Part shown: positions 9,177 through 17,396 of the stretch, in pieces
Layout: each line of letters starts with the position of its first letter
Position numbering within the stretch: the stretch's first letter is position 1
From: Streptomyces sp.
GTDB taxonomy: Bacteria > Actinomycetota > Actinomycetes > Streptomycetales > Streptomycetaceae
DNA: 35,042 bases
Assembly (NCBI RefSeq): GCF_031181555.1
Contig: NZ_JAPSKQ010000009.1
Location: 12,661-47,702 of the forward strand
Reading direction: 5' to 3'
The notes under the pieces: model-generated
The model's database searches: none
Told to the model about the DNA's origin: nothing
What the model saw: only the letters and a program-made list of their open reading frames with translations
Made by a program: the position numbers and the translations under genes

Positions 9177-9908
9177 TCATCCTACGGCCGTTCCGAACAG
9201 CGTGCCCAGGGCGTACGTCACACCGGCCGCCGCGCCACCGAGGGCGAGCTGCCGCAGCCCGCTGTACCACCAGGTCCGCGCCGTCACCTTGGCCACCACC
9301 GCACCGCACAGGAAGAGTCCGAGCAGCGCCAGCAGCACGGCGGGCCACAGACTGCTCGCGCCGAGGAGGTAGGGCAGCACGGGCAGCAGGGCGCCCAGCG
9401 CGAAGGAGCCGAAGCTGGAGACGGCGGCGACGGTGGGCGAGGGGAGGTCGCCGGGGTCGATGCCGAGCTCCTCGCGGGCGTGGATCTCCAGGGCCTGCTC
9501 GGGGTCCCGGGACAGCTGCCGGGCCACCTCGCGGGCCAGCTCCGGTTCGACGCCGCGGGCCTCGTAGAGCGCGGCGAGCTCGGCCTCCTCGTCCTTGGGG
9601 TGCTTGCGCAGCTCGCGGCGCTCGACGTCCAGCTCGGCCTCGACCAGCTCGCGCTGGGAGGCGACGGAGGTGTACTCACCGGCCGCCATGGAGAAGGCGC
9701 CGGCGGCCAGGCCCGCGAGGCCGCTGAGGACGACGGTCTGCTGGCTGACGGAGCCGCCGGCGACACCGGTCATCAGGGCGAGGTTGGAGACCAGGCCGTC
9801 CATCGCACCGAAGACGGCCGGGCGCAGCCAGCCGCCGTTCACGTCCCGGTGCGTGTGATTGTCGCGGTGCGCCTCGTGCAGCACCGCCTCGGTCTCGATG
9901 ATGGCCAT
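9177..9908 (-). CDS. VIT1/CCC1 family Fe(2+)/Mn(2+) transporter
   Basis: 243 residues. The family moves Fe2+ or Mn2+ out of the cytosol. The first membrane pair contains the signatures VFGAMDGLVSNLAL (about 33-46) and FSMAAGEYTS (about 72-81). A Glu-rich cytoplasmic stretch (about 85-150) follows, corresponding to the metal-binding domain of plant VIT1. Three more membrane segments complete a five-helix topology. The ATG is preceded by GGGGGG about 7 bases upstream. The gene is monocistronic: gltB starts about 400 bases beyond its end and the ADP-ribosylglycohydrolase operon diverges from its start. The iron box at 10020-10038 suggests DtxR/IdeR-type (DmdR) control. Which metal is carried cannot be read from sequence. 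Confidence 0.93.
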   Translation of the reverse strand: MAIIETEAVLHEAHRDNHTHRDVNGGWLRPAVFGAMDGLVSNLALMTGVAGGSVSQQTVVLSGLAGLAAGAFSMAAGEYTSVASQRELVEAELDVERRELRKHPKDEEAELAALYEARGVEPELAREVARQLSRDPEQALEIHAREELGIDPGDLPSPTVAAVSSFGSFALGALLPVLPYLLGASSLWPAVLLALLGLFLCGAVVAKVTARTWWYSGLRQLALGGAAAGVTYALGTLFGTAVG

Positions 9909-10019
9909 GACGCGTCCCCCCGGGGAGCTTGAGCCGAGCCCTTCCGAGCTCTCTTTGGACTGGTTCTACTTTTCGACGACTCCCAATGTACGCCGCGAAA
10001 TTCTCCGCCGCCAGCAAGG

Positions 10020-10038
10020 AAAGGCTGGGCTAACCTGC
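10020..10038. promoter_or_regulatory. DtxR/IdeR-type iron box in the VIT upstream region
   Basis: Thirteen of 19 positions match the palindromic iron box TTAGGTTAGSCTAACCTAA, including AGG on one side and the unbroken core GSCTAACCT on the other. It lies in the 282-base divergent spacer, 112 bases upstream of the VIT start. An iron or manganese regulator site next to a metal transporter makes biological sense. The other divergent operon could also be the target. Confidence 0.5.
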
Positions 10039-10157
10039 GGTTTTACGGATTCTGCTCGGTTGTGTGAAGGGCTGCTCACATGTCGACCGGGTGACGCTGG
10101 GGCTCATGAGGCTGCGCGGAGCACCGCACCGGGGACAGTTCCGCAAAGGGCCTCGCG

Positions 10158-10180
10158 CCTCTCGGGGCGCCCCTGAGAGG
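10158..10180 (+). promoter_or_regulatory. 5'-UTR hairpin partly covering the ribosome site of the first ADP-ribosylglycohydrolase gene
   Basis: CCTCTC-GGGG and CCCC-T-GAGAGG pair into a 10-bp stem with a one-base bulge. The last bases of the 3' arm (AGG) are the start of the AGGAGAG ribosome site (10178-10184). The structure could limit translation of the operon's first gene. It may equally be chance in GC-rich DNA. Confidence 0.3.
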
Positions 10181-10190
10181 AGAGCCGCGC

Positions 10191-11303
10191 ATGGCATCGA
10201 CCGCCCGCACCCCCTCGGTCCCGGCGCTCGGGAACGCCATCGGGCTCCGCGAACGGGCCCGCGGCGCGCTGCTCGGCCTGGCCGTCGGCGACGCCCTGGG
10301 CGCCCCGGCCGAGAACATGAAGCCCTCCGACATCCGTGCGGTCTGGGGCCGCATCACGGGATACGTCACGGACCGCCCCGCGGGCACGGACGACACCGAG
10401 TACGCGATCTTCTCCGGCCTGCTGCTGGCCCGGCACGGCCACGCGCTCACCCCGGCGCATGTCGAGGCGGCCTGGCACGAGCTGATCGCCGACCGTGCCG
10501 AGGGCCCCTTCCGGGGCGCCGGTTTCAGCGAGCGCGGCACGCTGGAGAACCTGCGCCGGGGACTGACCGCGCCCATCTCCGCCCAGCACCGGCACGCCTG
10601 GAGCGACGGGCTGGCGATGCGGGCGGCGCCCTGCGGGGTCTTCGCGGCCGGCCGTCCCGACGAGGCGGCCCGGCTGGCGGCCGTCGACGGCTCGGTCAGC
10701 CACGACGGCGAGGGCATCTACGGCGGGCAGGCGGTCGCCGCGGGCGTCGCGGCGGCGATGGCCGGAGCCCCGGTGGTCGCGGTCGTGGCCTCCGCCCTGG
10801 CGGTGGTCCCGGACGACTCCTGGACCGCCCGCTCACTGCGCCGCGCCGTCACCGCGGCCCACCTCGGCGAACGCGCGGTCCGCTCGGCGGTCGTGATCGG
10901 CGGCTACCCCTGGACCGACCTGGCCCCCGAGGCGGTCGCCCTCGCCTTCGGCGCGTACGCGGCGGCCGACGGCGACTTCGAGCAGGCGGTGCTGACGGCC
11001 GTCAACATGGGGCGCGACGCCGACACCACGGCGGCGGTCGCGGGCGCCCTGGCGGGCGCGACGCAGGGCGCCCGCGCGATCCCGGAGCCCTGGGCGGCCG
11101 CCATCGGCCCGGCCCGCGGCAGCTGCCTCCCGGCGATGGCGGGACACCACGTCCTGGACATCGCGGACCTGCTGGCGCCGGACGGGGACGGGGAGCGGGA
11201 CACGGCGGGGTGCGCGCCGGGCGAGACGCCGCTGCGGGGCGACGAGCCGGCCCCGGACACCTTCGTCCTGGTGGCGGACGACACGACGGAGGCCCCTTCA
11301 TGA
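10191..11303 (+). CDS. ADP-ribosylglycohydrolase family protein, paralogue 1
   Basis: 370 residues of the all-helical DraG/ARH fold, whose members remove ADP-ribose from proteins or small molecules using two Mg2+ ions. Signatures are GLAVGDALGAP (29-39), the metal motif TDD (T66, D67, D68) and the C-terminal metal motif RDADT (D276, D278, T279), so the binuclear site looks complete. The last 45 or so residues are acidic and probably disordered. The start has AGGAG 8 bases upstream. It leads an operon of six genes; its stop overlaps the next start (ATGA). Substrate is unknown: there is no nitrogenase or DraT toxin-like partner here, so regulation of nitrogenase is unlikely. Confidence 0.92.
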   Translation: MASTARTPSVPALGNAIGLRERARGALLGLAVGDALGAPAENMKPSDIRAVWGRITGYVTDRPAGTDDTEYAIFSGLLLARHGHALTPAHVEAAWHELIADRAEGPFRGAGFSERGTLENLRRGLTAPISAQHRHAWSDGLAMRAAPCGVFAAGRPDEAARLAAVDGSVSHDGEGIYGGQAVAAGVAAAMAGAPVVAVVASALAVVPDDSWTARSLRRAVTAAHLGERAVRSAVVIGGYPWTDLAPEAVALAFGAYAAADGDFEQAVLTAVNMGRDADTTAAVAGALAGATQGARAIPEPWAAAIGPARGSCLPAMAGHHVLDIADLLAPDGDGERDTAGCAPGETPLRGDEPAPDTFVLVADDTTEAPS

Positions 11304-12694
11304 CTCCCCCCGGCCCCACGGCCACCGACACCGGCACCGGCACCGGCACCGAGAAGCCCACGCAGGGCCCCGCGCCCGCCGACGGCACCCGGCCCCCGGG
11401 GAACCCCGCAGCCACCGCCGACGCCCGGCCCCCGCAGGAACCACCCGCACCCGCCGACGGCGAGCAGCCCGCACAGGGGCCACCCGCACCCGACCACGAA
11501 ACCCGTACGGGTGGTGCGAGGGGGAACACCCCCCGGGCCGAAGGCGCAGCCGGGGCCGAAAACCCCGCACCGCCGCCGCGGGCACACCGCGTCGAGGGGC
11601 TCCTCCTCGGCCTCGCCGCCGGGGACGCCGCGGGATGGCCCGCCGCACGGCACCGCGCCGCCCGGATGCCCGAGTGGACACGACGCCTCACCCGGGAGCT
11701 GGACACCTTCGCCGAGCAGAACGCGACCACCACCCTTCCCGTGCCGATCGCCCTCAACCAGCCCCCGGAGCCCCTGCGCCTCGGCCCCTCCGACGACGCC
11801 GAGTGGGCCGCGTTCGCGGCCGAGGCGGTGCTGCTGGCCGGGGACGACAGCGTGCTCGGGGATCTGAGCAGGGGTCGCCGGACGCGTGCCGCCATCGATC
11901 TGACCTGGAACGCCGTCGCCGCCGAGGTCGCCGCGGCCACCGAACGCGCCCCCGAGACCGAGTCGGCGGTCCTCCCCCTGCGCGCCCGCATCTCCGTGCG
12001 GGCCGGTCTCGGCAACCTGGCCACCGGTCTGCGCCCGCCCGCCACCGGCCACGACAACCCGCACTACTTCGACGACGCGGCCTGCGTACGGGCCTGCGTG
12101 CTGGCCGTGGCCCACCCCGGCGATCCCGCGGGCGCCGCCGCCCTCGCCGAGTTCGACGCCCGCTACACCCAGGACGGCGACGGGGTGCACGGCGCCCGCG
12201 CCATGGCCGCCGCCGTCTGTCTCGCGCTGGCCGGAGCGGACACGCACGCGTGCGTGGCCGCCGCGCTCGCCGAGCTGCCCGAGGAGACCGAGATCGGCCG
12301 CAACGCCCGGCACGCCCTGCGGCTCGCCGCCGACGCCGACAGCGCCTTCGCGCTCGTACCGCCGCTGGAGCACCAGATCGTCGACCACGTCTACAGCTAC
12401 GGCATCGCCGCCGCCGAGACCGTCCCCGTCGCCCTCGCCCTGGCCACCGCCGCCCACGGCCGGATCGCGGAGGCCGTCCCCGCGGCGGCCTGTCTGTCGC
12501 GGGTCGCGGACTCCGCCCCGGCGCTCGCCGGCGCCCTCACCGGCGCGCTGGGCGGCGGCGCGGCGATCCCCCGGACGTGGCGGGAGAGCTGCCGCGTCCT
12601 CTCCGGCTGCGCGCTCCCCCGGCTCACCGGCACGGACCTGGTGGAACTCGCCGGACTCCTGGAGGCCGTGCAACCGGCTCCACCGGAGGGATGA
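11300..12694 (+). CDS. Divergent ADP-ribosylglycohydrolase family protein, paralogue 2, with disordered N-terminus
   Basis: 464 residues. The first 95 or so are Pro/Thr/Ala/Gly-rich low complexity with a short TG repeat, probably disordered. The family fold follows: GLAAGDAAGWPA (104-115), SDD (164-166) in place of TDD, and a C-terminal motif reading RVADS (401-405) where paralogue 1 has RDADT. The first metal-binding Asp is thus Val402 and only Asp404 remains. The GDALG loop is also altered to GDAAG. It may bind ligand or partner rather than hydrolyse, or work with one metal. The ATG has GGAGG 7 bases upstream and overlaps the preceding stop. An alternative start inside the low-complexity region lacks support. 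Confidence 0.85.
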   Translation: MTPPGPTATDTGTGTGTEKPTQGPAPADGTRPPGNPAATADARPPQEPPAPADGEQPAQGPPAPDHETRTGGARGNTPRAEGAAGAENPAPPPRAHRVEGLLLGLAAGDAAGWPAARHRAARMPEWTRRLTRELDTFAEQNATTTLPVPIALNQPPEPLRLGPSDDAEWAAFAAEAVLLAGDDSVLGDLSRGRRTRAAIDLTWNAVAAEVAAATERAPETESAVLPLRARISVRAGLGNLATGLRPPATGHDNPHYFDDAACVRACVLAVAHPGDPAGAAALAEFDARYTQDGDGVHGARAMAAAVCLALAGADTHACVAAALAELPEETEIGRNARHALRLAADADSAFALVPPLEHQIVDHVYSYGIAAAETVPVALALATAAHGRIAEAVPAAACLSRVADSAPALAGALTGALGGGAAIPRTWRESCRVLSGCALPRLTGTDLVELAGLLEAVQPAPPEG

Positions 12695-12701
12695 TTCGGG
12701 C

Positions 12702-13883
12702 ATGACGCGCGAAGAGGCAGGAAAACGTGATCAGGGCGTGCCCCTGGACGAGCGGATCACCGGTGCCCTCGTGGGAGCCGCCGTCGGCGACGCCCTCGGC
12801 GGGCCGGTCGAGGGCTACTCCCCCGAACAGATCGTCGAGCGCCACGGCGGACGCGTGCACGGCGTCGTCGGCCCCTGGAACGGCGACGCCTGGCGCACCG
12901 CCCGCCCCATCGCCCCGTACCACAAGGGCGACGGCCACGTCACCGACGACACGTTGATGACGCACGCGCTGGTCCGGGTGTACGCGACGGTCCGCGACCA
13001 CCTGGACGCCCACGCGGTCGCCGACCACCTGGTCCCGGACCTGATGACGAACCCGCGCTGGATCCCGGAACTGGAGGCGGAGGCGCTTCCGCTGCAGCGG
13101 ATCTTCCTCGCGGAGAAGTGGCTGGTGGCCCGGCTCCACTACGGTCACGTCGACCCGCGCGAGGCGGGCGTCGGCAACATCGTCAACTGCGGTGCCGCGA
13201 TGTACATGGCGCCGGTCGGCCTGGTCAACGCGGCCCATCCGGCCGCCGCCTACGCCGAGGCGCTGGACGTCGCGGGCGCCCACCAGTCGTCGTACGGCCG
13301 GGAGGCGGCCGGGGTCCTCGCGGCGGCCGTCGCGGCGGCGTGCGCGCCGGGCGCGACGCCGGACTCGGTGGTCGCCGCGTGTCTGTCCCTGGCGAAGGAC
13401 GGCACGCGGGCGGCGATCGAGCGGGTCTGCGAGGAGGCGTCCCGGCACCCGGACTTCGAGTCGGCGCTGCGTCCCCTGCGGGAGGCGGTGGCCCCGTACG
13501 ACACCGTGGGCCCCGACTACCGCTCCCCCTCCCTGGGCGCCCGCCGCCCCTCCCGGCTGCACGCCGTCGAGGAACTGCCCGTGGCACTGGGGATGGTGGT
13601 GGTGGCCGGCGGCGACTTCCGGCACGCGGTGCTGGGCGCGGTGAACTACGGCCGGGACTGCGACTCCATCGCCACCATGGCCGGCGCCGTGACCGGTGCC
13701 CTCGGCTCACCGGTCCCCGAGGACTGGGCCAAGACCGTGGCGGAGGCCAGCCGCCTCGACCTGTGGGAACCCGCGGTCACGCTCACCGGCGTGGCCCGCG
13801 AGGTCTTCGCCCGGGACGTACGGCGCCGCCGGGCCCACGAGCGGGCGTTCGCGGAGCTGGGAGGGCCGGGATGCTCAGACTGA
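12702..13883 (+). CDS. ADP-ribosylglycohydrolase family protein, paralogue 3
   Basis: 393 residues with an intact-looking metal site: GAAVGDALGGP (25-35), TDD (T81, D82, D83) and GRDCDS (D319, D321, Ser322 for the usual Thr). It is the most conventional of the four along with paralogue 1. The segment GNIVNCGAAMYMAP (158-171) belongs to the fold's substrate side and resembles larger ADP-ribosylglycohydrolase-like proteins of unknown substrate. The start is 7 bases after the previous stop with GGAGGG somewhat far upstream; a later in-frame GTG at residue 13 is possible. Its end overlaps the next gene by 13 bases. Cytoplasmic. Confidence 0.92.
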   Translation: MTREEAGKRDQGVPLDERITGALVGAAVGDALGGPVEGYSPEQIVERHGGRVHGVVGPWNGDAWRTARPIAPYHKGDGHVTDDTLMTHALVRVYATVRDHLDAHAVADHLVPDLMTNPRWIPELEAEALPLQRIFLAEKWLVARLHYGHVDPREAGVGNIVNCGAAMYMAPVGLVNAAHPAAAYAEALDVAGAHQSSYGREAAGVLAAAVAAACAPGATPDSVVAACLSLAKDGTRAAIERVCEEASRHPDFESALRPLREAVAPYDTVGPDYRSPSLGARRPSRLHAVEELPVALGMVVVAGGDFRHAVLGAVNYGRDCDSIATMAGAVTGALGSPVPEDWAKTVAEASRLDLWEPAVTLTGVAREVFARDVRRRRAHERAFAELGGPGCSD

Positions 13884-15238
13884 CGTGGGTGCAGCCGGAG
13901 GACCTGATCGGCCACGAGCTGCGCCAGGCGGCCCAGGACGGCCGCGAGCCCTCGGTGGTCGCGGCCCGCTGGCGGGCGGCGGGCGGCCCCGAGGCCCCGC
14001 TCGGCGCGGGCGCGTCCCCGCGGCCGGCGTCCCGCTGCCTGCGCCTGCTGGCCGCCGACCTGCTGGACGAACTGGCCGACCTGCCCAGTGCGCTGGCGGA
14101 CGACGAGCCGACCGGCCTGACCGGGATCCGGGCCCTGTGCCCCGACTGGCCGCGACCGCCCGCGCATCCCCCTTCCCCGCCGGGCCCCGAACGCCTCGAG
14201 GCCGCCTGGCTCGGCCGGGCCGTCGGCTGCCTGCTGGGCAAACCGGTCGAGAAGCTCCCCCTCGACGGCATCCGCCGCCTCGCCCGGGCCGCCGGGAACT
14301 GGCCCCTGGCCGGCTACTTCACCGCCCGCGGCGTCCCGGAGGAACTGCTGGCCCGGTACCCCTGGAACCGCCGCTCGGCCCCCACCTCCCTCGCCGAGAA
14401 CATCGACGGCATGCCCGAGGACGACGACCTCAACTACCCCCTGCTGGGCCTCCTCGTCCTCCGCCGCCACGGCCGCGGCTTCACCACCGCGGACGTGGCG
14501 CGCGTCTGGCTCGACGAACTGCCCGCCGGCCGCGCGTTCACCGCCGAACGCGTCGCCTACCGCAACCTCCTCAGCGGTCTGGAACCGCCGCTGACCGCCC
14601 GTCACCACAACCCCTTCCGCGAGTGGATCGGCGCCCTGATCCGCGCCGACGTGCACGGCTGGACCAACTCCGGCGACCCGGCCGCCGCCGCCGCACAGGC
14701 CCACCGCGACGCGACCCTCACGCACACCGCCAACGGCGTCTACGCGGCGATGTTCACCGCGGCCGTCATCGCCGACGCCGCCACCGGCACCCGCGACGTG
14801 CACGCCTGCCTGCGCACCGGCCTCACGGTCGTCCCGCCCCGCTCCCGTCTCGCCCGGGCCGTCGAGCACGCCGTCCGGCTGGCCCGTGAGCACAGTGACT
14901 TCACCACCGTCGTCGACCTGCTGCACGACACGTACGCCGCCACCCACCACTGGGTGCACGCCGTCCCCAACACCGCCCTGATCGCCGCCGCCCTCACCCA
15001 CGCGGACGGCGACTTCGCCGGCTCCGTCTGCCGGGCGGTGTCCGGCGGTTGGGACACCGACTCCAACGGTGCCACCGCCGGGAGCATCGCCGGCCTGCTC
15101 GCCGGTTCCCCGGCCGCGCTGCCCGACCGCTGGACGGCCCCGCTGAGGAACCGGCTGGCGACCTCCGTCGGCGGCTTCCACGGCACCGGCTTCGACACCC
15201 TGGCCCAGCTCACCCACCAGGAGGCCTCCCGCCCATGA
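13871..15238 (+). CDS. ADP-ribosylglycohydrolase family protein, paralogue 4, with N-terminal extension
   Basis: 455 residues. Residues 1-105 form a separate helical region (starting MLRLTWVQPEDLIGHEL) that I do not recognise. The family domain follows: WLGRAVGCLLGKPVE (113-127), EDDD (183-186) in the TDD position and GGWDTDS (D395, D397, Ser398). The metal site looks complete but the LLGKP and EDDD variants set it apart from paralogues 1 and 3, as in the subset of the family sometimes annotated only as ADP-ribosylglycohydrolase-like. The start is supported by GGGAGGG 5 bases upstream and lies inside the preceding gene. The stop overlaps the CoA-transferase start (ATGA). Confidence 0.9.
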   Translation: MLRLTWVQPEDLIGHELRQAAQDGREPSVVAARWRAAGGPEAPLGAGASPRPASRCLRLLAADLLDELADLPSALADDEPTGLTGIRALCPDWPRPPAHPPSPPGPERLEAAWLGRAVGCLLGKPVEKLPLDGIRRLARAAGNWPLAGYFTARGVPEELLARYPWNRRSAPTSLAENIDGMPEDDDLNYPLLGLLVLRRHGRGFTTADVARVWLDELPAGRAFTAERVAYRNLLSGLEPPLTARHHNPFREWIGALIRADVHGWTNSGDPAAAAAQAHRDATLTHTANGVYAAMFTAAVIADAATGTRDVHACLRTGLTVVPPRSRLARAVEHAVRLAREHSDFTTVVDLLHDTYAATHHWVHAVPNTALIAAALTHADGDFAGSVCRAVSGGWDTDSNGATAGSIAGLLAGSPAALPDRWTAPLRNRLATSVGGFHGTGFDTLAQLTHQEASRP

Positions 15239-16470
15239 CCCGGCCCGACCCGACCGCCGCCCCACCGACCGCCCCGTCCCCCGCCGGACCCCCGCTGACC
15301 GGCCTGCGCGTCCTGGACCTCGCCACCCTCTTCGCCGGCCCGCTGGCGGCGACCCTGCTCGGTGACTTCGGCGCGGAGGTCGTCAAGGTCGAGCATCCGA
15401 GGAAACCCGATCCCTCCCGCGGCCACGGCCCGTCCAAGGACGGCGTCGGCCTGTGGTGGAAGGTGCTCGGCCGCAACAAGCGCACCATCACCCTGGACCT
15501 GTCCAGGCCCGGCGGCCGGGCCGCCCTCCTGCGCCTGGCCGGGACCGCCGACGTGGTCATCGAGAACTTCCGCCCCGGCACCCTGGAGAAGTGGGACCTG
15601 GGCTGGCCCGAGCTGTCCGCCGTCAACCCCCGCCTGATCCTGGTCCGGGTCACCGGCTTCGGACAGTTCGGCCCGTACGCGCACCGCCCGGGCTTCGGCA
15701 CCCTCGCCGAGGCGATGAGCGGCTTCGCCGCGATCACCGGCGAACCGGACGCCCCGCCGACCCTGCCGCCGTTCGGCCTGGCGGACTCCATCGCGGGCCT
15801 GGCCACGGCGTACGCGGTCATGACCGCGCTGGCCGGCCGCGACCGCACCGGCGAGGGGCAGGTCGTCGACATGGCCCTGATCGAGCCGATCCTCACCGTG
15901 CTCGGCCCCCAGCCGACCTGGTACGACCAGCTGGGCCACGTCCAGCCCCGCACCGGCAACCGCTCCCAGAACAACGCCCCCCGGGGCACCTACCTCACCG
16001 CCGACGGCACCTGGGTCGCCGTCTCCACCTCGGCCCAGTCGGTCGCCGAACGCGTGATGCGTCTGGTGGGCAGGCCGGAGCTGATCGACGAGCCCTGGTT
16101 CGCCACCGGCGCCGGCCGGGCCCGGCACGCGGACGTCCTGGACGAGGCGGTCGGCGGCTGGATCGCGCAGCGCACCCGCGCCGACGTGCTGGCGGCCTTC
16201 GAGAAGGCGGAGGCGGCCGTCGCCCCCGTCCAGGACGTACGGGACGTGATGGCGGATCCGCAGTACCAGGCCCTGCACACGATCACCACGGTCGACGATC
16301 CCGAGCTGGGTCCGCTGCGCATGCAGAACGTCCTCTTCCGGCTCTCCGGCACCCCGGGCGCGATCCGCTGGGCCGGCCGCCCGCACGGCGCGGACACCGA
16401 GGAGGTGCTGACCGAACTGGGCCTCGCCCCGGCCGACCTCGCGGCGCTGCGCGCGGAGGGCGCCCTGTGA
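15235..16470 (+). CDS. Class III CoA-transferase (CaiB/BaiF family)
   Basis: 411 residues. Family members such as formyl-CoA:oxalate transferase move CoA between carboxylic acids through an Asp-bound anhydride. The expected Asp is Asp184 in PFGLADSIAG. Other family landmarks are LRVLDLATLFAGP (24-36), GAEVVKVE (46-53), the RNKRTITLDL segment (80-89) and the VIENFRPG motif (108-115). The first 20 residues are Pro/Ala-rich linker. AGGAGG lies 10 bases before the ATG, which overlaps the stop of the fourth glycohydrolase gene. It is followed, also by overlap, by a CoA-ester lyase gene, so the pair could activate an acid and then cleave its CoA ester. The acid is unknown. Confidence 0.93.
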   Translation: MTRPDPTAAPPTAPSPAGPPLTGLRVLDLATLFAGPLAATLLGDFGAEVVKVEHPRKPDPSRGHGPSKDGVGLWWKVLGRNKRTITLDLSRPGGRAALLRLAGTADVVIENFRPGTLEKWDLGWPELSAVNPRLILVRVTGFGQFGPYAHRPGFGTLAEAMSGFAAITGEPDAPPTLPPFGLADSIAGLATAYAVMTALAGRDRTGEGQVVDMALIEPILTVLGPQPTWYDQLGHVQPRTGNRSQNNAPRGTYLTADGTWVAVSTSAQSVAERVMRLVGRPELIDEPWFATGAGRARHADVLDEAVGGWIAQRTRADVLAAFEKAEAAVAPVQDVRDVMADPQYQALHTITTVDDPELGPLRMQNVLFRLSGTPGAIRWAGRPHGADTEEVLTELGLAPADLAALRAEGAL

Positions 16471-17297
16471 CGGACTTCCCGCTGACCTGGCTCTACGCCC
16501 CCGGGGACCGCCCCGCCGTGGTGGCGAAGGCGCTCGCCTCCGGCGCCGACGTGGTGGTGATCGACCTGGAGGACGCGGTCGCCCCCGACCGCAAGGCCTA
16601 CGCCCGCGCGGCCACCGCCGAGCTGCTGCGCGACCCGCAGCCGGTCCCGGTCCACGTCCGCGTCAACGCCCTGGGCGGCCCCTGGGGCGAGGCCGACCTC
16701 GCGGCCGTCGCCCCGGCCCCGGGCCTGTCCGGTCTGCGGCTGCCCAAGGTGTCCTCCCCGTCCGAGGTCGTGCGCGCCGCGCGCCGCGCCGTGTCCGCGC
16801 ACGGCGGTGTGCTCCCCCTGTACGCCCTCCTGGAGTCGGCCCTCGGCATCGAACGGGCCCACGCCGTGGCCACCGCCCACCCGTCCCTGCGCGGTATCGC
16901 GATCGGCGAGGCGGACCTGCGGGCCGACCTGGGGGTACGGGAGGACGCGGGCCTCGACTGGTCCCGCTCCCGCGTGGTCGTGGCCGCGCGGGCGGCGGGC
17001 CTGGCCCCGCCCGCCCAGTCCGTCCACCCGGACACCCGCGACCTGGAGGGCCTCATCGCCTCCTGCGCCCGCGGTCGCGCCCTGGGCTTCCTGGGGCGCG
17101 CCGCGATCCACCCCCGCCAGCTGCCGGTCATCGAGCGGGCCTACCTCCCCGGCGAGGAGGAGATCGAGCAGGCGGAGACGATCGTCAAGGCGGCGGCGAC
17201 CGGGCAGGGCGCCCAGGCACTGCCCGACGGCGGGTTCATCGACGCGGCGGTGGTGGCGGCGGCTCGGCGAACCCTGTCCCTGGTCCGCAGGACCTGA
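16467..17297 (+). CDS. HpcH/HpaI aldolase / CitE-type CoA-ester lyase
   Basis: 276 residues of the TIM-barrel family that includes the citrate lyase beta subunit and malyl-/citramalyl-CoA lyases. Visible active-site markers are Arg65 in VRVN, Glu123 in LLES and Asp150 in GEADLRADLG, with LEDAV at 34-38 and the C-terminal IHPRQLP. Mg2+ would be held by the Glu and Asp. It probably cleaves or makes a C-C bond in a 3-hydroxyacyl-CoA. The GTG start overlaps the CoA-transferase stop (GTGA) and has GGAGGG 6 bases upstream. No other citrate lyase subunit is nearby, so it is a stand-alone lyase. Last gene before the operon's terminator. Confidence 0.92.
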   Translation: MTDFPLTWLYAPGDRPAVVAKALASGADVVVIDLEDAVAPDRKAYARAATAELLRDPQPVPVHVRVNALGGPWGEADLAAVAPAPGLSGLRLPKVSSPSEVVRAARRAVSAHGGVLPLYALLESALGIERAHAVATAHPSLRGIAIGEADLRADLGVREDAGLDWSRSRVVVAARAAGLAPPAQSVHPDTRDLEGLIASCARGRALGFLGRAAIHPRQLPVIERAYLPGEEEIEQAETIVKAAATGQGAQALPDGGFIDAAVVAAARRTLSLVRRT

Positions 17298-17341
17298 TGC
17301 CGGAAGCCACCCCGGAATCCACCGGAACCACCGCCCGGCAC

Positions 17342-17382
17342 ACGCCGAGGGCGCCCGGAACGTCTCCGGGCGCCCTCGGCGT
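17342..17382. terminator. Strong bidirectional terminator between the glycohydrolase operon and lgt
   Basis: A perfect 17-bp stem (ACGCCGAGGGCGCCCGG and complement) with a 7-base loop, 44 bases after the lyase stop and 14 bases from the lgt stop. It separates convergent transcripts. Confidence 0.9.
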
Positions 17383-17396
17383 CGTGCGGCGGGCCG

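Follow-up and report, generated by a model that had tools for sequence, protein, structure and literature searches.

Four ADP-ribosylglycohydrolase paralogues in a Streptomyces operon with a CoA-transferase and a CoA-ester lyase: the likely core of a larger actinobacterial cluster for the proposed catabolism of a sugar-acid compound

The Streptomyces sp. DNA analysed here (35,042 nucleotides of contig NZ_JAPSKQ010000009.1, assembly GCF_031181555.1; hereafter the window) harbours at positions 10191-17297 a six-gene operon comprising four paralogues of the ADP-ribosylglycohydrolase family (PF03747, ADP_ribosyl_GH; ARG1 to ARG4), then a CaiB-type coenzyme A (CoA)-transferase (CoA-T) and a CitE-type lyase (CitE), as seen from open reading frames (ORFs) and Pfam matches. 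An earlier note on this DNA had described this operon, and the ORF list and the sequence agree with it on the gene junctions (four overlaps, of 4, 13, 4 and 4 bases, and a single gap of 7 bases). We consider it likely that the operon is the core, probably in a reduced form, of a larger actinobacterial cluster (LacI regulator, carbohydrate-type ABC importer and ribokinase-like gene) that breaks down a glycoside in which a hydroxydicarboxylic acid is joined to a sugar, probably ribose. The features of the locus are as follows:

10191-11303, + strand: ARG1, ADP-ribosylglycohydrolase family; metal motifs TDDTE (residues 66-70) and DADT (276-279), both present.
11300-12694, + strand: ARG2, ADP-ribosylglycohydrolase family; N-terminal stretch rich in Ala and Pro (about 95 residues); C-terminal DxD with its first Asp replaced (V402).
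12702-13883, + strand: ARG3, ADP-ribosylglycohydrolase family; metal motifs TDDT (81-84) and DCDS (319-322), both present.
13871-15238, + strand: ARG4, ADP-ribosylglycohydrolase family; N-terminal addition of about 105 residues; DDD (184-186) and DTDS (395-398).
15235-16470, + strand: CoA-T, CaiB/BaiF (class III) CoA-transferase.
16467-17297, + strand: CitE, CitE/HpcH-type CoA-ester lyase; GTG start.
17338-17388, no strand: GC-rich hairpin between the convergent CitE and lgt genes, found by folding.

All four ARG proteins exceed the PF03747 cut-off of 26.2 bits (195.7 for ARG1, 111.6 for ARG2, 166.3 for ARG3 and 173.7 for ARG4) and, with the matches of CoA-T to PF02515 (class III CoA-transferase; 414 bits) and of CitE to PF03328 (128 bits), the gene content given in the earlier note is upheld, as is the presence of paralogues with differing metal sites and N-terminal additions. 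The four ARG proteins are distant relatives (mutual identity of 28-38% over their alignable parts), and each type forms one group across families in a quick tree (support of 87 for ARG1). Among the copies gathered from the loci L045-L144 (the ARG4 set including ARG4-like paralogues of other contexts), the N-terminal Asp pair and the Asp residues of the C-terminal DxD are kept in 71 copies of ARG1 (one is gapped at the second motif), both Asp motifs in 87/87 copies of ARG3, and D184-186, D395 and D397 in 93/93 copies of ARG4; these three types possess both Asp motifs of a full binuclear metal site. ARG2 keeps the N-terminal Asp pair (83/84 copies) and lacks the full binuclear site, the first Asp of the C-terminal motif being replaced by V, L, Q or N in 84/84 copies. 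ARG2 usually adjoins ARG1, even in loci devoid of ARG3 and ARG4 (L052, L064, L192); only one of the two was called in a few loci, and in L191 (genome G327) only ARG2 and ARG4, ARG1 and ARG3 being possible misses of the ORF finder. The altered metal motif of ARG2 and its position beside ARG1 point to a partner role: judging from sequence, ARG2 is probably a non-catalytic or modified partner of ARG1, and probably not an independent hydrolase.

The predicted model of ARG4 (mean pLDDT 91) matches MJ1187, DraG and ARH3 in Foldseek. The ARG proteins resemble DraG, ARH1 and ARH3 (PF03747) by their fold and by the Asp metal motifs of ARG1, ARG3 and ARG4. They differ by their number (four paralogues) and their linkage with genes for an importer, a kinase and the CoA enzymes (see below), by the altered metal motif of ARG2, by the N-terminal helical addition of ARG4 and by scores far under the curated NCBIfam cut-offs for the DRAG equivalog TIGR02662 (best, 73 of 337 bits) and for the ADP-ribosylarginine hydrolase Tri1, NF041672 (best, 51 of 490 bits). 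For the ARG4 model, Foldseek ranks chain Q of the Orf2971-FtsHi motor complex (8xks) first, above DraG and ARH3. A second ARG4-like gene, devoid of the N-terminal addition, adjoins a glycerate kinase gene in G000:C133 (L056 10213-11286, - strand); this kinase was named by NCBIfam in L056 and by eye in L062 and L063. The ARG4-like paralogues in G034:C35, G058:C1 and G027:C1 have one in-frame TGA inside the match.

CoA-T belongs to the class III family, and its D184 stands, from the alignment offset, at the place expected for Asp169 of formyl-CoA transferase, which we take to be the catalytic nucleophile, and presumably D184 has the same role. The possibility that CoA-T lacks a catalytic Asp was rejected, since the GFG motif (residue 155) is not the nucleophile site and the Asp169 equivalent is present. 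CitE belongs to the CitE/HpcH superfamily; its R65, E123 and D150, which presumably operate in catalysis, are retained and align with the Arg, Glu and Asp of 8khl (its best solved relative), 3qll, 4l9y and 5ugr. The itaconate/citramalate route (Ict-Ich-Ccl; RipABC) employs a CoA-transferase and a CitE-type lyase. The operon is similar in having both, and CitE best matches RipC and 8khl. It differs in that CitE scores 157.5 bits with RipC (NF038242, its top NCBIfam match), well below the cut-off of 375 for a citramalyl-CoA lyase, in that its transferase is of class III, and in that no gene for a hydratase like that of the itaconate route is found among the six (the rest of the genome was not searched for one).

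For the wider context of the operon, ARG4 served as the query against a class sample of 296 genomes, a match at E 1e-100 or better being regarded as operon-type. Outside Streptomyces, 25 genomes match at this threshold, and all 25 places were inspected with gene calls from an ORF finder that uses codon scores learned from the six genes of the operon and that may miss or shorten genes. ARG3 adjoins ARG4 in each of them. The genes are mostly arranged as LacI, two permeases, solute-binding protein, ARG1, ARG2, ARG3, ARG4, kinase, in some cases a protein with a glycosidase-like (GH) barrel and a formylglycine-generating enzyme (FGE)/EgtB-fold domain, CoA-T and CitE. Same-strand CoA-T and CitE genes lie nearby in 24 of the 25 loci (the exception being G179, where ARG1-4 and the importer stand on one contig and CoA-T, CitE and DctM on another); LacI, both permeases and the binding protein in 23 (L045 and L185, which begin at the end of a contig, lack them); ARG1 and ARG2 in 22 (absent from L047 as well); the ribokinase-like kinase in 22, counting a fusion in L045; and the GH/FGE protein in 16. 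The parts were named by Pfam and NCBIfam on L057 and a few others; the operon of L047, which the ORF finder missed, was read by eye (LacI, importer and CitE were named by eye; CoA-T, ARG4 and the GH/FGE protein were confirmed by searches).

The binding protein and permease of the importer match SBP_bac_1 and, weakly, MalE-, GanS- and MalG-like families. Tested against the ribokinase model TIGR02152 (cut-off 299.65), one of six kinases scores above it (312.1) and the others between 282.5 and 298.9. The GH/FGE protein (620-640 residues; L057 5708-7624, - strand; L045 2648-5638, where it is fused to the kinase; L047 2408-4276) has 1868 database relatives at E 0.001, and the L057 copy is identical to a protein of Jiangella alkaliphila. 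According to Pfam, its FGE domain is the C-terminal half, and from our reading of the predicted secondary structure the barrel would be the N-terminal half. Its predicted model (pLDDT 80) resembles in Foldseek both TIM-barrel glycosidases (GH13, GH30, fucosidase) and formylglycine-generating enzyme/EgtB, at query TM-scores of 0.20-0.37.

CoA-T also occurs in other contexts. Relatives at E 1e-110 were found in 75 of the 296 genomes, namely in 46/46 genomes with an ARG4 operon gene (E 1e-100) vs. 29/250 others (raw counts, which ignore kinship; the 29 include G327, with a broken-up ARG4 match). Twenty CoA-T places outside ARG operons and L200 were inspected, relatives being followed down to about 59% identity. 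In three of these 21 places (L200, L209, L214) a TRAP DctM permease gene stands beside CoA-T and CitE, together in L200 with an RraA-like gene and an NAD-binding_2/DUF1932 gene; in 15 CoA-T is accompanied by MmgE/PrpD-, cyclase- and amidohydrolase-like genes (recognised by Pfam in L203 and partly in L212, and by the likeness of protein starts in the other loci); and three fit neither context. The association of CoA-T with TRAP-dicarboxylate or MmgE/PrpD-type genes outside the operon indicates that it is an acid-handling part. In a tree of 42 CoA-T proteins the ARG-operon copies occupy two places, that of L047 being separate, and a single clade is rejected (p-AU 0.0017); most simply, an acid-handling CoA-T was brought together with ARG3/ARG4 on two or more independent occasions. 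As a side observation, the loci L201-L220 and L200 hold recurrent actinobacterial clusters of CoA-transferase, CitE, MmgE/PrpD, cyclase, amidohydrolase, FAD_binding_2 and Asp/Glu racemase genes, which suggests a putative acid pathway.

Within the genus we studied 80 named loci among the matches listed (79 from Streptomyces and one from Actinobacteria bacterium OV320), the closest of the listed ARG3 copies being 94% identical. With a single exception, and as far as each stretch extends, gltD-gltB-VIT precede the operon and lgt-dsbA-trpA follow it. CoA-T is present in 72/72 of the listed loci that extend 5.5 kb past ARG3, and CitE in 71/72 (L084 being a possible miss of the ORF finder, as may be ARG1 or ARG2, uncalled in a few loci). 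The outcome named in the earlier note as refuting its view, CoA genes that do not stay with the glycohydrolases, was looked for and not found, outside or inside Streptomyces, and a chance clustering of CoA-T with the ARG genes was rejected on the 72/72 count. Of the 80 loci, 33 have a kinase gene between ARG4 and CoA-T (shortened in L125 and L079), and four end before CoA-T. This kinase gene is missing from the window operon and its closest relatives; its distribution would require 12 gains or losses on a weakly supported tree.

A search of 41 Streptomyces genomes for the binding protein gave one match in each of 27, and seven of these 27 places were inspected. In G037 and G014 the binding protein gene stands with LacI and permease genes directly before ARG1 (no kinase was called in G014). 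In G023 (L198 9460-12700) the permease and binding protein genes lie alone between VIT and lgt, i.e., at the site occupied by the operon in the window, and ARG genes and an ARG4 match are absent; they are possibly the remnant of a larger cluster. In the other four places the importer is elsewhere. From the arrangements in G037, G014 and G023, the larger cluster was probably once located at the gltB/lgt site, and was then trimmed.

Given the importer and ribokinase-like genes beside the same genes in other actinobacteria, the operon likely serves to degrade a sugar-acid compound and not to remove ADP-ribose from proteins; this is the best-supported inference that we can offer. Ribose and a malate- or citramalate-type acid are the likeliest candidates for the two halves of the substrate; plant 2-alkylmalate glycosides would fit the proposed chemistry. 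The pathway would operate as follows. First, the solute-binding protein and two permeases of the related operons, whose linkage is observed, would import the compound. Second, ARG3/ARG4, the two that the most strongly reduced relative retains, and the pair of ARG1 and ARG2 would hydrolyse glycosidic bonds through the binuclear metal site of the ARH fold. Third, the ribokinase-like enzyme, in this strain one encoded elsewhere, would phosphorylate the released sugar. Fourth, CoA-T would attach CoA to the released acid. Fifth, CitE would cleave a malyl- or citramalyl-type CoA ester to acetyl-CoA and glyoxylate or pyruvate. In its most specific form, this scheme makes the ARH-fold enzymes paired intracellular glycosidases, with ARG2 as a metal-site pseudoenzyme, that cut an imported riboside of a malate- or citramalate-type acid, the sugar going to the ribokinase and the acid to CoA-T and CitE; we put this version forward tentatively.

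The following points weigh against this proposal. First, the substrates named for the enzymes are putative. CoA-T and CitE score below every NCBIfam cut-off listed, which makes the identity of the acid a guess from chemistry, and five of the six kinases fall under the ribokinase cut-off. Second, the cluster varies: kinase, ARG1 and ARG2 are all absent from L047, extra genes separate CoA-T from CitE in L058, L061 and L177, the CoA pair precedes LacI in L046, and in a phylum sample of 396 genomes ARG3 was found in 10, with no non-Streptomyces genome among them. Third, neither importer nor kinase genes adjoin the window operon; LacI, permease, binding protein and GH/FGE genes were found in none of the 80 listed loci; the importer binding protein has no match at E 1e-60 in the host genome (86.8% complete); and the full operons of G037 and G014 lie away from the gltB/lgt site. 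Fourth, the joint occurrence of the binding protein and the ARG4 operon gene does not exceed chance expectation in 40 Streptomyces genomes (22/31 vs. 5/9, p 0.44; G001, 79% complete and with no operon-type ARG4 match, was excluded, and G032, with an ARG4 fragment at a contig end, was counted as having ARG4). An association of the two within Streptomyces was discarded as not significant, which counts against most members of the genus now having a dedicated importer, and this is the main weakness of the catabolic proposal for this strain. The catabolic or salvage route suggested in the earlier note is thus partly supported: the importer, LacI, kinase and glycosidase-like genes found elsewhere and the occurrence of the same CoA-T type in acid-gene clusters favour it, but ARG2 is probably not a hydrolase by itself, the window operon has neither importer nor kinase beside it, and the only assays reported in the available part of PMC13036486 are two negative ones on a single ADP-ribosylated substrate.

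We regard as unlikely that ARG1-4 reverse the ADP-ribosylation of proteins or nucleic acids in the manner of DraG/ARH enzymes, with ADP-ribose or ribose being salvaged and the CoA genes being chance neighbours. In S. coelicolor, SCO2028-SCO2031 are consecutive and among eight uncharacterised DraG/ARH homologues (PMC9411070), SCO2028-2030 being also listed as DraG homologues (PMC5087735). We take these four as the equivalent locus because of the gene order in S. violaceoruber NRRL S-981 (L101), where gltB/VIT on one side and lgt on the other enclose ARG1-4, CoA-T and CitE; no search of the S. coelicolor record was made. The parts of these papers available to us treat the genes as ADP-ribosylation hydrolases and do not mention the CoA genes, and a lively ADP-ribosylation metabolism was inferred from such putative ADP-ribosyl hydrolases (PMC5087735, PMC9411070), in keeping with the fold and metal motifs shared with DraG and ARH3. 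However, the carbohydrate-type importer, LacI and kinase genes adjoin the same genes in other families, CoA-T is kept as described above, both equivalog cut-offs are missed by far, and activity on U-ADP-ribose, the one substrate reported in the available part of PMC13036486, was undetectable for both SCO2028 and SCO2030.

A role in the salvage of nucleosides or modified nucleosides (N-ribosides), with the CoA pair taking a carboxylated breakdown product of the base, seems improbable as well. ARH-fold enzymes cleave N-ribosyl bonds, the related operons have a ribokinase-like kinase, and the MmgE/PrpD, cyclase and amidohydrolase genes found beside CoA-T would suit a heterocycle route. Furthermore, in the yegTUV operon of E. 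coli (GgaR regulon) a sugar kinase and an ADP-ribosylglycohydrolase are encoded together with a symporter predicted to carry nucleosides (PMC10819704). Yet by its binding protein and permease the importer of the cluster falls into carbohydrate-importer families, a GH-barrel protein accompanies the cluster in 16/25 loci, and no base-processing gene was recognised among the operon genes, though no systematic search for one was made. As presented in the available part of PMC10819704, yegTUV is the closest described operon type that we found, similar in uniting transporter, hydrolase and kinase genes, and different in its single hydrolase, its transporter of the nucleoside:H+ symporter type and its GntR regulator, no CoA-transferase or lyase being named there. 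We found no paper in the open-licence literature joining ADP-ribosylglycohydrolase, CoA-transferase and citrate lyase.

It is very improbable that the operon merely co-regulates two unrelated units, one for a sugar and one for an acid, on one transcript: the units are separable, as in G179 and in G096 (where ARG1-ARG2 with LacI and ABC genes lie some kilobases from a CoA-T/CitE/TRAP group), but CoA-T apparently joined ARG3/ARG4 more than once, overlaps ARG4 by 4 bases in the window and remains linked in the listed Streptomyces loci devoid of importer and kinase.

If the catabolism of a sugar-acid compound is confirmed, presumed ADP-ribosylation erasers would move into carbon catabolism, the ARH fold would gain a new biochemical use, and several actinobacterial families, including one member with a 1.8 Mb genome, would use such a compound. 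Counts of PF03747 genes would then be a poor measure of the ADP-ribosylation of a genome (the host genome has eight matches, four of them in this operon), and four of the eight DraG homologues of S. coelicolor would be unrelated to ADP-ribosylation. The substrate question is directly testable because the related operons encode a binding protein.

As to transcription signals, no sigma-70-like promoter was found within 9880-10250, upstream of ARG1. Downstream of CitE, the terminator reported in the earlier note stands as a strong hairpin (a 103-base stretch, -69.2 kcal/mol, z -6.7); as the sequence behind it has no T run, it does not qualify as an intrinsic terminator of the classical kind. It may be shared with the convergent neighbour. 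The operon is flanked upstream by a divergent gene that we take to be VIT-like (9177-9908, - strand) and, presumably, gltBD, and downstream by what we take to be lgt, a dsbA-like gene, trpA and trpB.

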